From Bacillota bacterium (lineage in GTDB: Bacteria > Actinomycetota > Aquicultoria > Aquicultorales > Aquicultoraceae), in contig JAIMBH010000001.1 in the NCBI GenBank assembly GCA_023511485.1, forward strand, positions 62,001 through 126,000: 64,000 nt of DNA, in the 5' to 3' direction. The notes beneath the pieces were generated by a model, which ran no database searches, was not told where the DNA came from, and worked only from the letters and a program-made list of their open reading frames with translations. Below, in pieces: positions 49,331 to 55,705 of the stretch. The position numbers and the translations under genes are program-made. Position 1 is the first letter of the stretch. The number at the start of each line of letters is the position of its first letter.

Positions 49331-50837
49331 CCTTGGATTCTGGCCGCATGTGAGGAAAGCTTATAACTTCGCGGATTGAATAATTATCAGTTAGAAGCAT
49401 GACAAGCCGGTCTATCCCTATGCCAAGCCCACCTGTTGGAGGCATACCGTACTCTAGGGCCCGCACATAGTCCTCATCCACCTGCCTTGGGGCCTCTTCA
49501 TCACCGTACTCACGCAGCTTAACCTGCGCCTCAAATCGCGCACGCTGGTCGATTGGATCGGTCAGCTCGGAAAAAGCCGTCCCGATCTCAAGCCCTATTA
49601 TAATCAGTTCAAACCGCTCAGTCACATCCGGATTATCGAGCTTTTTCTTGGCGAGCGGACTAATCTCTGTAGGGTAATCGGTAATAAAAGTAGGCTGCCA
49701 CAGCTTTCCTTCAACAAGTTTTTCAAAAAGCTCATTAATTATTTTGCCCTGTCCCCAGTGTTCTTCGGGCTCTATACCGTGGTCCCTGGCGATTTTTCGC
49801 AGCTCATCAAGGCTTTGATTTAACGAAACCTTAAGCCTTCCGTATTTCTCTATCGATTCGACCATTGTCAGACGCTGCCACTCTCCGGAGAGATCGACAG
49901 GTTGATCCTGGTACATAAGTTTTAGCGTGCCAACAGCCTGCTCGGCGGCATATTTGATAAGCGACTCGCACAAATTCATCATATCTGCGTAATCAGCGTA
50001 AGCCTGGTATACCTCAAGCATTGTGAATTCGGGATTATGCCTGACCGAGAGACCCTCATTCCTGAAGTTCCTATTTAGCTCATAGACGCGCTCCATATCG
50101 CCCACTATTAGCCGCTTTAGATATAGTTCCGGGGCTATGCGCATATAGAGGTCAATATCGAGCGCTTCATGGTGAGTTATAAATGGCCGCGCCGCGGCAC
50201 CACCAGCAATTGGCTGAAGCATAGGGGTCTCTACTTCAATGAAGCCACGGTTATCAAGCCATTCCCGTATGGCCTTAACTACCTTATTTCGTGTAAGCAA
50301 AGTCTGCCTGGCCTGGGGATTTATAATGAAATCAACATAGCGCTGGCGAAACCTGGTCTCTACATCCTTTAAACCATGCCATTTTTCAGGAAGCGGCCGC
50401 AAAGACTTTGTAAGCAATGTATAGGATTCTACACTTATCGAAAGCTCGCCCCGCCTGGTTTTGAATATCTTGCCGGTTACACCGATAATATCTCCGATAT
50501 CATACTCAAGAAAATTACGGTACCCTTCTTCACCAAGCGTGTTTAGCGATAGAAAAAGCTGGATGCTTGCCGTGCGATCCTTTATCACCATAAAACTGGC
50601 TTTACCGTGCCTGCGAATGGCCATAATACGACCTGCAACAGTCGTCGACTCACCAGTCTGCTCTCCTGCCTCAATTGAGCCAAATTTGTGGATGATATCC
50701 TCGATGAGGTTTGTGCGGTTGAATTTAGATTTAAATGGATTTTCGCCAGAAGCTTTGATTTTTTCTAGCTTCTGGCGCCTTATCTTCATTACTTCACTAA
50801 TATTTTCAGTAGCCTGGAGCTCGGGCTCTTTTCCCAT
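49326..50837 (-). CDS. lysS: Lysyl-tRNA synthetase, class II
   Basis: 503 residues. OB-fold anticodon domain (about 60-165, TTVAGRIMAIRRHGKASF) and class II catalytic core with motif 2 region FRNEGLSVRHNPEFTMLEVYQAYADY and motif 3 GGLGIGIDRLVMLLTD. It charges tRNA-Lys. The start overlaps the greA stop (TAATG), so translation is coupled to greA. Confidence 0.97.
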   Translation of the reverse strand: MGKEPELQATENISEVMKIRRQKLEKIKASGENPFKSKFNRTNLIEDIIHKFGSIEAGEQTGESTTVAGRIMAIRRHGKASFMVIKDRTASIQLFLSLNTLGEEGYRNFLEYDIGDIIGVTGKIFKTRRGELSISVESYTLLTKSLRPLPEKWHGLKDVETRFRQRYVDFIINPQARQTLLTRNKVVKAIREWLDNRGFIEVETPMLQPIAGGAAARPFITHHEALDIDLYMRIAPELYLKRLIVGDMERVYELNRNFRNEGLSVRHNPEFTMLEVYQAYADYADMMNLCESLIKYAAEQAVGTLKLMYQDQPVDLSGEWQRLTMVESIEKYGRLKVSLNQSLDELRKIARDHGIEPEEHWGQGKIINELFEKLVEGKLWQPTFITDYPTEISPLAKKKLDNPDVTERFELIIIGLEIGTAFSELTDPIDQRARFEAQVKLREYGDEEAPRQVDEDYVRALEYGMPPTGGLGIGIDRLVMLLTDNYSIREVISFPHMRPESKD

Positions 50838-51349
50838 TATCTTTTGGTTGCGACCTTCTTGCTAATAGGATTCTTGCTAACTTTTAGTATTTTATACTCT
50901 AGGAAACCCTCAGGCACGCGAACCTGGACGGTATCGCCTGCCTTCTTGCCCATTATAGCACGACCTACCGGTGATTCGTTAGAAATTTTATGATTCGTTG
51001 GGTCGGCTTCAAATGAGCCCACGATTTGATACTCTTCCTCTTCATTGGACTCAATATCAAGTAGGAGAACAAAAGAGCCTATGGCAACATTGCGGGTTTT
51101 GCTGCTGCCGTTATCCTCGATAATCTTAGCCATCGAGAGCATGTCATTAATTTGAGCAATCCTGCCTTCAACAAAAGCCTGCTCATTCTTTGCATCATCG
51201 TACTCTGAGTTCTCGCTTAAATCCCCAAACTCAATAGATTCTTTAATCCGCTGCGCCACCTCCTTGCGGCGGATTGTTTCTAAATAGCGCAGCTCCTCAA
51301 GCAGCTTATTATGACCATCACGCGTAAGAATAATCTCTTTTTCTGGCAA
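50837..51349 (-). CDS. greA: Transcription elongation factor GreA
   Basis: 170 residues from TTG 51349 (GGAG nine bases upstream), which gives the usual PEKEIILTRDG start; a GTG ten codons earlier is possible. Coiled coil tip has Asp43 and Glu46 in EFGDLSENSEYDDAKNEQ, the residues that place Mg in the RNA polymerase channel. It rescues backtracked polymerase. It leads greA-lysS with a consensus promoter. Confidence 0.95.
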   Translation of the reverse strand: MPEKEIILTRDGHNKLLEELRYLETIRRKEVAQRIKESIEFGDLSENSEYDDAKNEQAFVEGRIAQINDMLSMAKIIEDNGSSKTRNVAIGSFVLLLDIESNEEEEYQIVGSFEADPTNHKISNESPVGRAIMGKKAGDTVQVRVPEGFLEYKILKVSKNPISKKVATKR

Positions 51350-51417
51350 GACCTTTCGCTCCTTTACACGTAAGAGCACTTTTTAGTAGTGCTGGCTTCA
51401 CGTGAAACTAGCTACGT

Positions 51418-51446
51418 ATTATAAAAAAATGCTCCTTACTTGTCAA
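51418..51446 (-). promoter_or_regulatory. Consensus sigma70 promoter of greA-lysS
   Basis: Minus strand TTGACA (51441-51446), 17-base spacer, TATAAT (51418-51423): a full match to both hexamers. It leaves a leader of about 60 bases to the TTG start and supports that start choice. Confidence 0.85.
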
Positions 51447-51696: not shown

Positions 51697-52776
51697 TTAC
51701 CGTCCGGCAACAGCTTTGAGCTTTGCGTTTTCCCGCACCTTATTTATATGGGCATCAGAAAGCTTTTTATCGAAGCTTCTTAGAGCCGCCAGCTTAAAGC
51801 CATGCTTTTTAGCCATCTCAGACATCTCGTTTACTTTTTTTATTGATATATCCTTGCCAATGGTATAGCTTTCATATTTTCCCTCAAGAGCCAGCAGCAT
51901 CGTTTCCGCAATGCAGCCCAGCCCAAGCCCTTTAGGCAGGCCAAGAACATCATAAAGGTCTACATTCCCAGGAATTTTTGTAAGACCCCCATCAATAACT
52001 AGAACATCTTTCCTCATCTTTGTAACAGCCTCCGCTACGTCACGAGGACGTGCAACGTCGCAGATGACCGCACCGGGCTTAATATCATTGGGGTTAATGA
52101 CCGCATCGACCGCACCTGTAACCGTTATAATTACATCGGCAGGTCGAATAGCGGAAAGAGAGCTTGAAATCTTCACTTGCTTGTTCTTGTTCGATATGCG
52201 TTCGCCCAGCCTTGCAAGCCTGCCCTGATTCCTACCAATAAGTATTACTTCTTTAAATTGATCGGCTAGGAGCTCGGCAGCCGCACTTCCAATAGACCCA
52301 GTAGCACCAACAATAGCCAGGGTTGAAGAATCAAGGTTTATGTCCATCCTCCTTGCAGCCTCTATTGTACCCTCGATAGCAAGAACAACCGTGTAGGTAT
52401 TACCTGTTGTGACCGGCACGCTGGTCATCTCATCAACCAACCTGCCACCCTCTCCCGGAATTGCGGTAAAGGCTCCCAGCCCTATTATGCCCGCACCCTC
52501 TTTCCTGCCCATTTCACAGGCTTTCACTATTTTCTCAATCACATAATCCTGATCTAAATCATAAAATTGGTGCGGAAGAAACGGCACAACAATAAACCAT
52601 CCGATCGCCTCTTTTCCGGTAACAGACCTAACTCCGGTGATCTCTGAGAAAATAAGGGGTCTGCGTCTTCTCAAAACGCTGGCAACCACCCTTGGCGAGA
52701 CCTTCTTGGCTATTTTATATTTCTTAGTCACGTGTTCTATATTCATTGGGTGGACTAAAAATCCAAATGTTTCCAT
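51697..52776 (-). CDS. Acyl-ACP reductase-like protein (AAR family homolog)
   Basis: 359 residues. The sequence follows cyanobacterial long-chain acyl-ACP reductase along its length. It starts FGFLVHPMN, has GLGAFTAI (about 99-106) and the family motif TTGNT (123-127). The Rossmann loop is GATGSIG (157-163), and GCIAETMLLALEGKYE contains Cys288, matching the catalytic cysteine (Cys294 in Synechococcus) that carries the acyl thioester. Such enzymes reduce fatty acyl-ACP or acyl-CoA to aldehyde with NADPH. Databases often name these bacterial relatives shikimate/quinate dehydrogenase, which the motifs do not support. No aldehyde-deformylating oxygenase is in the window. Good SD AAGGAG. The substrate is unknown. 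Confidence 0.75.
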   Translation of the reverse strand: METFGFLVHPMNIEHVTKKYKIAKKVSPRVVASVLRRRRPLIFSEITGVRSVTGKEAIGWFIVVPFLPHQFYDLDQDYVIEKIVKACEMGRKEGAGIIGLGAFTAIPGEGGRLVDEMTSVPVTTGNTYTVVLAIEGTIEAARRMDINLDSSTLAIVGATGSIGSAAAELLADQFKEVILIGRNQGRLARLGERISNKNKQVKISSSLSAIRPADVIITVTGAVDAVINPNDIKPGAVICDVARPRDVAEAVTKMRKDVLVIDGGLTKIPGNVDLYDVLGLPKGLGLGCIAETMLLALEGKYESYTIGKDISIKKVNEMSEMAKKHGFKLAALRSFDKKLSDAHINKVRENAKLKAVAGR

Positions 52777-52800
52777 GTAAACTCCTTCATTTAAACTTTA

Positions 52801-52876
52801 AGCTGCCATCTATCAGAAGGAAAATGGTTACTGGTTTAACAGACCAAGCTGATAGCTAAAACCTGACAGCCTAAAG
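52801..52876. repeat. Degenerate family hairpin
   Basis: CTATCAG (52810-52816) pairs with CTGATAG (52849-52855), with AGCTG.../...ACAGC..AGCT flanks. It fills the gap between the two genes of the reductase cluster. Poorer match than other copies. Confidence 0.5.
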
Positions 52877-52881
52877 CTTCC

Positions 52882-53787
52882 TTAATTAAGCCTTTCAATC
52901 CTCGGTTTATAATCGAGCTTCTTTAGGATTTCCAGATAGTCCTGTGAACTTACTTCTTCCCACTTTTTATCTAAAAGTGCCAATAAGGTAGCTTCAAGGA
53001 CGTTCGTGCCAAATGAACGGCCGTTGAAAACAGGAGTAGTGGTTATCAAGAGCTCCACACCCCGTGCCTTCATATCATCAACATCCTGTTGGGTTGTGGT
53101 GTTGGTAAGTATCCACTTGCCCCTCATGTCTTTTGGCATGTATTTGCGAATAAAAAGATAATCCCCCGCTATGATATCTGATTCGTAGTAAAACCGCGCA
53201 TATTTGTCAGATGAGTTATTTTCCTGCTTGCTGCCTGTCGGGTAAAGTATTTTAAACGGCATCTTAGTAACAACCGGCAAGATTATTTTAGCAAGCATCT
53301 TAAAATTATCCATCGTACGGATTGGAATAGGTATGTTAAGCCCAAAGATAAGATCGCCAAATATAATCTTGCAGCCAAGCCCATGCAGAGCCTCAGCCAT
53401 TCCAAACCTATCGACCGCACTCACCATTAGTACCGATTTAGTCGATAACGGAAGTCCCTCTACTTCAGCAAGGAATCGTATCGTCTCACGCTCAAGTGAG
53501 TCTTTAAGACCGCTGCCATCAACAACCGGCGTTTTTTTGACAACCTTTCTTAGCCTCTGTGCATCCCTTATAACATAGCGCTTTCCATCAGCATACAGGT
53601 AAAGATCTATCCCACCGAGCCCAATCGCATCGACTTTGCCATCAAGGTCTTTTAATAGTTGCATGGCTCTGGATAAATCGCCATCGGTTCCAATTCGCTC
53701 TATGCAAAAATCCTCACCGAGCAGACTGATATTAACTTTATGATTTCTTTTTGAAGATCCTAAACTTGCGCTTACTATAGTCTTCAC
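52882..53787 (-). CDS. Uncharacterised protein of the family named quinate 5-dehydrogenase
   Basis: 301 residues. It begins KTIVSASLGSSKRNHKV and has IGTDGDLSRAMQLLKDLDGKVDAIGLGGID, VVDGSGLKDSLERE, and a C-terminal TNTTTQQDVDDMKARGVELLITTTPVFNGRSFGTNVLEA. I recall this family only from automatic names such as quinate 5-dehydrogenase; no classical NAD(P)-binding GxGxxG loop is visible, so that name should not be trusted. It overlaps the regulator gene by 50 bases and precedes the acyl-ACP-reductase-like gene. A joint role is likely because the three occur together; the reaction is unknown. Confidence 0.7.
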   Translation of the reverse strand: MKTIVSASLGSSKRNHKVNISLLGEDFCIERIGTDGDLSRAMQLLKDLDGKVDAIGLGGIDLYLYADGKRYVIRDAQRLRKVVKKTPVVDGSGLKDSLERETIRFLAEVEGLPLSTKSVLMVSAVDRFGMAEALHGLGCKIIFGDLIFGLNIPIPIRTMDNFKMLAKIILPVVTKMPFKILYPTGSKQENNSSDKYARFYYESDIIAGDYLFIRKYMPKDMRGKWILTNTTTQQDVDDMKARGVELLITTTPVFNGRSFGTNVLEATLLALLDKKWEEVSSQDYLEILKKLDYKPRIERLN

Positions 53788-54325
53788 TGTTCCGCTCTCT
53801 TCCCTCGGTCACGCCCGCAAGTACGTCATGTAGAGCCTGTTGATCAACTTTACGGTCTCTTCTTATGGGTGAGCTTCCAATTGAAATCCCCACCACTTCA
53901 CGGTCGAGTATCTTCTCAAGCATTGCAATACGCTTATCTGATGCCAGAAACACCACAACATCGTAGTCTTTAAGACCCGCAAGCAGAGCGAGAAGCTCAT
54001 TGAAGATCTGGGCTCCGCTTTTTCTTCGCACGTATTCTTTGCGCTCGGTATCACTTAAGAAGTAAATAAAATCAACCGCAAATTCCTGTGCAACTTTCTC
54101 AAGTTCTTCCTTATTGGCAATCGGAAAGCCAACTACTGCAATCCGGTTTCCCCTTCTTACCTCGCCAAGGCCTTCAAGGTGGGAAACAAACGAGCGCTCC
54201 AGTCCAAGAGCTATAGCCACTTCTTGTTGGGTCGCCCCGACTGCTCGCCTATGTAGAATCTCGCTGATTATATTTACAAGCCGGTCACGATCGATGATCT
54301 TATCGCCTATCCTATGAAGCTTCAT
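53738..54325 (-). CDS. HTH transcriptional regulator of the reductase cluster
   Basis: 195 residues from ATG 54325 (AAGGA seven bases upstream; a GTG six codons earlier is inside the operator). The N-terminal helix-turn-helix (about 17-55, ATQQEVAIALGLERSFVSHLEGLGEV) is XRE-like. The rest (about 60-160, IAVVGFPIANKEELEKVAQEF, VVVFLASDKR, VVGISIGSSPI) looks like a ligand-binding or Rossmann-like domain of unknown specificity, and the tail is basic. An inverted repeat directly before the start suggests autoregulation. Its end overlaps the next gene by 50 bases, so the cluster is co-transcribed. Confidence 0.8.
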   Translation of the reverse strand: MKLHRIGDKIIDRDRLVNIISEILHRRAVGATQQEVAIALGLERSFVSHLEGLGEVRRGNRIAVVGFPIANKEELEKVAQEFAVDFIYFLSDTERKEYVRRKSGAQIFNELLALLAGLKDYDVVVFLASDKRIAMLEKILDREVVGISIGSSPIRRDRKVDQQALHDVLAGVTEGRERNSEDYSKRKFRIFKKKS

Positions 54326-54336
54326 GTCGCTTTCCT

Positions 54337-54356
54337 TGTGCACAATTTTGTGTACA
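54337..54356. promoter_or_regulatory. Operator-like inverted repeat at the HTH regulator promoter
   Basis: TGTGCACAA (54337-54345) and TTGTGTACA (54348-54356) form an inverted repeat with one mismatch and a 2-base centre. It begins next to the -10 box and covers the predicted start of transcription. Confidence 0.65.
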
Positions 54357-54357
54357 T

Positions 54358-54387
54358 TTTATACCAAGCAGGATAATTGTTCAACAA
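54358..54387 (-). promoter_or_regulatory. Promoter of the HTH regulator cluster
   Basis: Minus strand TTGTTG (54382-54387), 18 bases, TATAAA (54358-54363). The -35 box touches the T-run of the preceding htrA terminator. Confidence 0.55.
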
Positions 54388-54502: not shown

Positions 54503-55672
54503 TTAATTTTCAGGGCGCTCACCTAACTCAAGCTTAAGGGTCATTCTTTTGCCATCGCGATAGATTTCAAGAGGTATCTTCTCACCTACTTTATGCTTAT
54601 CGATAAAGTCGAGAAGGTCATCCATGTTAGTCACGTTTACGTTGCCTATCTTAACGATAATATCTCCACCGACCGGGTATTGCTCTCCTGTATCGGTGTC
54701 AATGCCGACCTGGGAACCTCTAAGTCCTGCTTTATCTGCAGGACCGCCCGGCATGACCTGGATTACCATGACACCCTTATCAACTGGGGCTTTTACAAGG
54801 TCAGCAAATGCTTTGTCCATTTCCCGCCCAGCAATTCCGATCCATGGGTGGCTTGCCTTGCCATTCTTACTGATTTGCTCAGCAATTTGCTTGACCGTAT
54901 TGCTCGGGATGGCAAAAGCTATGCCAGCAAAATCACCTGATTGCGTATAAATCTGAGAGTTTATACCGACAACTTCACCGAATGCATTAAGAAGCGGTCC
55001 GCCGCTGTTTCCAGGATTTACTGCCGCGTCGGTTTGGATTGCACCTCTTATCTGAAACCTCCGGTCGGCCGAGTCGATTGTCCTATTTATCGCACTGACT
55101 ATACCCTGAGTCATTGTGCCATTGAGTTCAAATGGCGAGCCTATTGCATAAACCGTGTCTCCAACTTTAAGTTTCGAGCTATCGCCCAACTCGAGAACTT
55201 TTAAATTCCTTTTTCCGGGGTCAATTTTTAGAACGGCAATATCGGTACTGGGGTCGGTTCCCAAAAGCTTTGCCTCAACTTCATCCTTATCGTTTAAGAG
55301 AACCATTATTTTACTTGCCTTAACTCTTGAGTCCTGAACTACGTGAGCATTAGTTACAATAAGCCCCGATTTATCGATCACAAAACCTGATCCGCTAGCC
55401 TCTTTCTCCTGTGACGGCAGAGGTATAATAAAACCAAAGAAATCGGATGATCTGTTCTGGGTAAAGGTCGATTTTATATGAACTACGCCCGGCGCAAAAT
55501 TCTCATAGATAGCTTCAGCAGAAAGCTCTCCTGCCGATTTTTGCTGCCGCACCACTTTTGAGAGATTAACCGTCTGTCCAGTATCTGCAGGCGCCACCGC
55601 ATTCATCGCAAAGAAGACCAATAAACCTCCCAACACCGCCGAGACGAAACTAGTTAACACCGTTTTCCACAC
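54503..55672 (-). CDS. HtrA/DegP-type serine protease with PDZ domain (second copy)
   Basis: 389 residues from GTG 55672 (GGAAGG six bases upstream; a TTG ten codons earlier has no SD). One N-terminal membrane helix (about 4-24), a linker, the protease domain with His110 (TNAHVVQD), Asp144 (PSTDIAVL) and Ser223 (PGNSGGPL), and a PDZ domain (about 285-385). It works outside the cytoplasmic membrane in protein quality control. It differs from the copy at 34427 by a shorter N-terminus and a different PDZ. It has its own terminator. Confidence 0.93.
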   Translation of the reverse strand: MWKTVLTSFVSAVLGGLLVFFAMNAVAPADTGQTVNLSKVVRQQKSAGELSAEAIYENFAPGVVHIKSTFTQNRSSDFFGFIIPLPSQEKEASGSGFVIDKSGLIVTNAHVVQDSRVKASKIMVLLNDKDEVEAKLLGTDPSTDIAVLKIDPGKRNLKVLELGDSSKLKVGDTVYAIGSPFELNGTMTQGIVSAINRTIDSADRRFQIRGAIQTDAAVNPGNSGGPLLNAFGEVVGINSQIYTQSGDFAGIAFAIPSNTVKQIAEQISKNGKASHPWIGIAGREMDKAFADLVKAPVDKGVMVIQVMPGGPADKAGLRGSQVGIDTDTGEQYPVGGDIIVKIGNVNVTNMDDLLDFIDKHKVGEKIPLEIYRDGKRMTLKLELGERPEN

Positions 55673-55705
55673 AGATATCCTTCCTTTCAATTTAGCTGTC
55701 AATGA

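Follow-up and report, generated by a model that had tools for sequence, protein, structure and literature searches.

Three adjacent genes on the minus strand of a 64,000-nucleotide window (the whole stretch of DNA that was analysed) raise the question of what an enzyme resembling the acyl-ACP reductase (AAR) of cyanobacteria might do in another bacterial setting, and with which partners. The genes run in the order REG (53738..54325), PART (52882..53787) and AARL (51697..52776), and encode an HTH regulator with a C-terminal alpha/beta domain, a 301-aa partner protein and a 359-aa acyl-thioester reductase-like protein, respectively. REG was read from its ATG, with a GTG at 54343, 18 bp upstream on the same strand, as an alternative start, and the overlap of 50 bases between PART and REG given in a preliminary description of the locus is exact (53738-53787). 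The trio is real and conserved. A neighbourhood survey, as that description had suggested, found REG-PART-AARL across phyla, commonly in the order coaX-dusB-REG-PART-AARL-greA-lysS (names read from neighbour sequences). The conserved downstream neighbour greA (50837..51379, minus strand), which lies outside the function of the trio, has its own near-perfect promoter-like sequence upstream (TTGACA-17-TATAAT, 12/12, at 51418..51446, minus strand), making the trio a separate unit. In the window, an HtrA-type protease gene (54503-55702) stands between coaX and REG, a feature of the Aquicultor family that is absent from most other lineages.

All of the features described earlier for the 359-residue protein are present: the TTGNT motif (residues 123-127; 52396..52410, minus strand), the GATGSIG dinucleotide loop (residues 157-163; 52288..52308, minus strand), which matches 162-GATGDIG-168 of AAR (PMC7089970), and Cys288 (codon 51913..51915, minus strand) within GCIAETMLLALEG. 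Cys288 aligns, as proposed, with Cys294 of AAR, the residue that carries the acyl group in that enzyme (PMC7089970), as well as with the cysteine of PigE, and all 26 diverse homologues compared, with identities down to 37%, keep it. Also invariant in this alignment are T123, G125, N126, the three glycines of GATGSIG, Arg182 and Glu291. In AAR, the extra phosphate of NADPH is surrounded by R189, R193 and R314 (PMC7089970), which correspond in the AARL-AAR alignment to positions 182, 186 and 308; position 186 is arginine or lysine in 20 of the 26 homologues and position 308 in 24, so that the phosphate positions are positively charged in AARL as in AAR, and the GATGxIG loop is kept.

The best match of AARL among PDB sequences is PigE (4ppm, E 1.8e-36), followed here by AAR (6jzq, E 7.6e-26), both nearly full length. 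PigE also gave the best score among curated models (206.5 bits, against an equivalog cut-off of 850 for a model that spans the aminotransferase half of PigE too), and the AAR model TIGR04058 gave 119.6 bits, far under its equivalog cut-off of 449.7. The AAR-like identity first put forward is upheld by the motifs and the cysteine but does not extend to AAR equivalence. Judged by its cysteine, loop and phosphate pocket, AARL is a predicted member of the AAR/PigE-type cysteine thioester reductase family, and sequence comparison makes it a remote relative of cyanobacterial AAR and a closer relative of the reductase half of PigE. In a tree of the family, AAR and PigE sit on very long branches and their placement is uncertain. 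It looks as if AARL works like AAR, yet forms a separate deep subfamily, and we know of no activity for any of its members.

Two further matches bear on what the substrate might be. Pfam Shikimate_DH scores 52.2 bits on AARL, above its cut-off of 24.3, and this is a likely source of the quinate/shikimate dehydrogenase naming that the preliminary description held to be wrong. That AARL is in fact a quinate or shikimate dehydrogenase is highly improbable, however: the matching model is a generic nucleotide-binding domain, the shikimate substrate-binding domain has no Pfam match in AARL, and the full-length matches are to thioester reductases with a catalytic cysteine. The next curated relative by score is GluTR (53.2 bits), an enzyme that also pairs with a PLP-dependent aminotransferase-type enzyme (PMC8341465). 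This match, together with the location of the AARL gene set among housekeeping genes, would suit a reading in which a GluTR/HemL-like reductase-aminotransferase pair is at work and the substrate for AARL and PART is a small acyl or aminoacyl thioester of central metabolism, not a long chain. We regard this as quite unlikely, as the GluTR match is limited to residues 138-256, the nucleotide-binding part, whereas the AAR and PigE matches are nearly full length and include the cysteine. The alkane route of cyanobacteria, in which AAR is followed by ADO, was rejected because ADO is absent: PF11266 was found in 0 of 40 genomes (that of the window and 39 relatives), with Synechococcus elongatus positive as control.

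The window copy of PART has no match in Pfam or NCBIfam; a PHROGs search gave nothing of note, and PART found nothing among PDB sequences and no match on plasmids. PART has no GxxGxxG, the corresponding stretch reading SAVDRFG, in agreement with the earlier statement that the partner lacks a cofactor loop. Across 68 homologues from several phyla, 42 of about 300 columns are invariant, which points to a strict function. An AlphaFold (AF2) model (pLDDT 90.6, pTM 0.87) has as its top structural match in the PDB the TAD of carmabin biosynthesis (E 1.1e-5, TM 0.52), and AAR chains reach TM 0.48-0.51. Among the structural matches listed these two show the highest TM (0.48-0.52); other Rossmann proteins reach 0.45, and the matches of lower TM include two-domain alpha/beta proteins such as glutamate dehydrogenase and sugar-binding proteins. 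The comparison with AAR structures called for earlier thus yielded a weak resemblance for PART, at a TM of about 0.5, and on the basis of the model it is plausible that PART shares the AAR/AARL fold. Similar motifs occur in the same order in PART and AARL (among them GLGGIDLYL/GLGAFTAI, TPVVDGSGL/VPVTTGNTY and NVLEATLLAL/CIAETMLLAL), and hhalign aligns the two profiles end to end. Sequence homology between them was considered and is not claimed, because the hhalign score of 15.7 is no better than the shuffle mean of 16.3 and unrelated profiles score likewise. In one locus (L042:4057-5909, the same as L027), tandem PART duplicates, about 57-61% identical to the window PART, lie between REG and AARL.

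A profile search of the genome collection with PART returned at least 576 loci, and the best 80 include Actinomycetota, Bacillota, Armatimonadota and Vulcanimicrobiota/Eremiobacterota. Many anaerobic thermophiles, and relatives of theirs, keep the operon, and in at least 33 of the best 80 loci an AARL with the cysteine adjoins PART. In 300 genomes from the phylum of Desulfovirgula, PART was found in 225 and AARL in 190, with both in 187, PART only in 38, AARL only in 3 and neither in 72; the odds ratio is 118, and a Fisher's p for this co-occurrence ignores shared ancestry, which inflates it. Where rows with both genes were compared, PART and AARL were no more than 3 kb apart in 55 of 66 genomes. 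Among 60 relatives of the window the counts were 38 for PART and 37 for AARL, three genomes being discordant; one relative (G001) has kept REG-AARL-greA but has no PART between REG and AARL. The asymmetry seen in the 300 genomes carries information: AARL almost never occurs without PART, and PART can occur without AARL. The 38 PART-only genomes imply a role for PART without a detectable AARL, and PART, which exceeds AARL in both conservation and breadth of occurrence, is no small accessory.

The Desulfotomaculum group has dusB-REG-AARL-greA-lysS, with PART elsewhere beside the genes for an amino-acid permease and an SCP2-like lipid-binding protein; in a Desulfotomaculaceae locus (L064:5965-7678), the place of AARL after PART is taken by genes for an SCP2-like protein and an APC-type permease. 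Several Bacillota have, between PART and greA, an AARL-like protein of 240-310 aa in which the cysteine and loop motifs are lost (L051:4611-5513, L086:1700-2602, L103:5940-6857, L054:6017-6823, L055:5958-6746, L068:5925-6728 and L044:3654-4391), apparently a decaying or repurposed paralogue. Of the lineages with such a protein, G642 and G643 carry an aminotransferase-AARL fusion elsewhere in the genome, and G646 and G647 a full AARL. No good AARL and no fusion was found in some PART-bearing Bacillota, such as G644, G645 and G648.

The fate of the presumed aldehyde is suggested by the company that AARL keeps in relatives. In Oleimmundimicrobium, of the same class as the window's organism, the genes after PART encode, in order, a class-III aminotransferase (Pfam 401 bits), an SRPBCC/polyketide-cyclase protein and AARL, with greA next, the aminotransferase, SRPBCC and AARL genes packed within a few bases of each other. 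Loci from Armatimonadota and Vulcanimicrobiota show the same aminotransferase-SRPBCC pair (c16-c17) next to AARL and PART. In several genomes where PART has no AARL at its side, a long ORF (748-951 aa) matches AARL; in those read, Bacillota fusions of about 900 aa, the aminotransferase part precedes the reductase, and the tree groups the fusions in a single clade. Among the matches listed on proteobacterial plasmids, every AARL relative that carries an annotation is an aminotransferase class-III protein, and two of the plasmid regions that were opened resemble prodiginine clusters on reading. A Leisingera plasmid (NZ_CP035421.1, L222:4591-8778) encodes an AARL-like reductase and class-III aminotransferase protein of about 1,395 aa beside an MMPL transporter, with no obvious prodiginine cluster at the locus, and on a Haematobacter plasmid (L224:4618-8353) an aminotransferase-reductase fusion adjoins a gene annotated as glycine/sarcosine/betaine reductase selenoprotein B family.

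In the window's genome AARL is stand-alone, and an orthologous aminotransferase, 54% identical to that of Oleimmundimicrobium, is encoded at a locus not linked to the trio, adjoining an orthologous SRPBCC protein 35% identical to the Oleimmundimicrobium one. The pair is followed by a CDP-alcohol phosphatidyltransferase, an MBL-fold protein and a nucleotidyltransferase/phosphomannomutase. This locus (L161:1718-7371; G000:C11:46000-59000) resembles a lipid operon. At loci L167 and L169 of relatives the aminotransferase adjoins the same kind of phosphatidyltransferase, and at L162 a PlsY-GpsA fusion. Because many genomes hold class-III aminotransferases, finding one away from the trio counts for little; the link rests on the SRPBCC pairing, the clusters and the fusions. 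Taken together, the gene neighbourhoods are moderate evidence for conversion of aldehyde to amine in a lipid context.

The preliminary description had named aldehydes, alcohols, ether-type lipids or a signal as possible products. As end products, aldehyde, alcohol and ether lipid are less favoured than an aldehyde-to-amine route, given the many relatives in which AARL is clustered with or fused to a class-III aminotransferase. An unlikely alternative is that AARL makes a fatty aldehyde destined for an alcohol or an ether or vinyl-ether lipid, the aminotransferase links being a separate recruitment in some lineages. AARL without an adjacent aminotransferase is the commonest arrangement, the SCP2-like and SRPBCC lipid-binding neighbours suit a lipid role, and many hosts are thermophilic anaerobes, groups with known unusual lipids. 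However, no alcohol dehydrogenase or ether-lipid gene was recognized as recurring beside the trio, whereas aminotransferases do recur, both as clusters and as fusions.

The regulator appears to be local. The window REG gives a weak HTH match, and a relative exceeds the Pfam HTH_3 cut-off; the REG model (pLDDT 79.9) has an HTH and a C-terminal alpha/beta domain, and a fold search against the PDB gave no significant match. At REG's own promoter lies a 20-bp palindrome, TGTACACAAAATTGTGCACA (54337..54356, minus strand), an inverted repeat of the half site TGTRCACAAW for which 0.03 occurrences are expected in the window. A promoter-like TTGAAC-17-TAAAAT (54356..54384, minus strand), identified by consensus match only, abuts this operator with its -10 end, a position kept in relatives. 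Across phyla the operator recurs upstream of REG: under a matrix trained on actinobacterial sites, a 1% null threshold is passed by 26 of 37 loci, some of them actinobacterial. Several of the loci failing the threshold, from Thermoanaerobacter and Caloramator relatives, have a shortened site, GAGCACA-aaa-TGTGCACA. Strong sites number one per genome in the window's family; the window's genome has one strong operator and elsewhere just a 3-mismatch match, and the operator is absent from its aminotransferase operon. RNA structure at the operator is ordinary (z 0.28). The conserved operator backs the earlier description of REG as a dedicated regulator, and the simplest reading of these sites is that REG acts as a local autorepressor. 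REG would repress the trio by binding the palindrome across the -10/start region, and its C-terminal domain may sense a pathway metabolite.

The reading that we prefer, at somewhat better than an even chance, is that REG-PART-AARL is a self-repressed acyl-thioester reduction operon whose aldehyde most likely goes to a terminal amine by way of a class-III aminotransferase. AARL would bind NADPH through the GATGSIG loop, accept on Cys288 the acyl group of an ACP or CoA carrier and release an aldehyde, as its homology suggests. The aldehyde would most likely pass to a class-III aminotransferase and, on the pattern of PigE and TamH, become a terminal amine. For the window's organism, this transaminase may be the enzyme encoded, at the separate locus, beside the SRPBCC protein and the CDP-alcohol phosphatidyltransferase. 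PART most likely binds the acyl donor or the aldehyde, or makes the substrate. A tentative proposal, which we put well short of even, is that PART and AARL form a two-protein acyl reductase, with PART a diverged cysteine-less AAR-fold subunit or a new substrate-making enzyme, yielding a membrane lipid or signal, as yet undescribed, that derives from an aldehyde or amine in anaerobic Bacillota and deep Actinomycetota. For the preferred amine route, a housekeeping rather than an antibiotic setting is favoured.

Homology supports the acyl-thioester reductase-like enzyme outside cyanobacteria that was first proposed, and that point alone is not new, AAR relatives outside cyanobacteria (PigE, TamH) being already known. 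Precedents for the chemistry exist in AAR, PigE and TamH. No earlier description could be found of the setting, the partner or the breadth, and searches of the open-licence literature on the trio, on AAR homologues in Firmicutes and on the carmabin TAD found nothing usable. What is new here is the repeated connection of AARL with a class-III aminotransferase, through gene clusters that also hold an SRPBCC protein or through fusion of the two in Bacillota. PART, present in three quarters of a one-phylum sample and lacking a Pfam or NCBIfam match in its window copy, nearly always accompanies an AAR-type reductase. The path from acyl thioester through aldehyde to amine is known from antibiotic pathways, and here it would belong to a regulated module that many anaerobes conserve next to housekeeping genes. 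Such a module predicts an undescribed lipid or metabolite, and offers new reductase-aminotransferase pairs, thermophile versions included, for making fatty aldehydes and amines.

Among known systems, cyanobacterial AAR (TIGR04058; PDB 6jzq) has in common with AARL the TTGN and GATGxIG motifs, the Cys294 equivalent and the positive residues at the NADPH phosphate, but AARL falls far below the equivalog cut-off and is without an ADO partner. The TAD of carmabin biosynthesis (PDB 9e4u, 9e4x) is a weak sequence relative of AARL (E 1.9e-8), and its likeness to PART is at the level of fold only. PigE and TamH both combine thioester reduction with transamination (PMC8341465, PMC9594044). The N-terminal thioester reductase domain of PigE, from prodigiosin biosynthesis (PDB 4ppm), matches AARL over nearly its full length, including the catalytic cysteine, and is coupled to a class-III aminotransferase. 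AARL is clustered with or fused to such an enzyme in relatives, and in the window's genome the aminotransferase lies only at another locus. Unlike PigE, the window AARL is a separate 359-aa protein encoded with PART and REG, the two activities are not on one polypeptide, and no prodigiosin genes were recognized near the trio. PtTamH of tambjamine biosynthesis, an aminotransferase-thioester reductase fusion with an AAR-type reductase that yields an amine from acyl-ACP (PMC9594044), has, by its description, the same domain order as the Bacillota aminotransferase-AARL fusions. While TamH belongs to an antibiotic-type cluster, the AARL family is found in housekeeping neighbourhoods together with PART.
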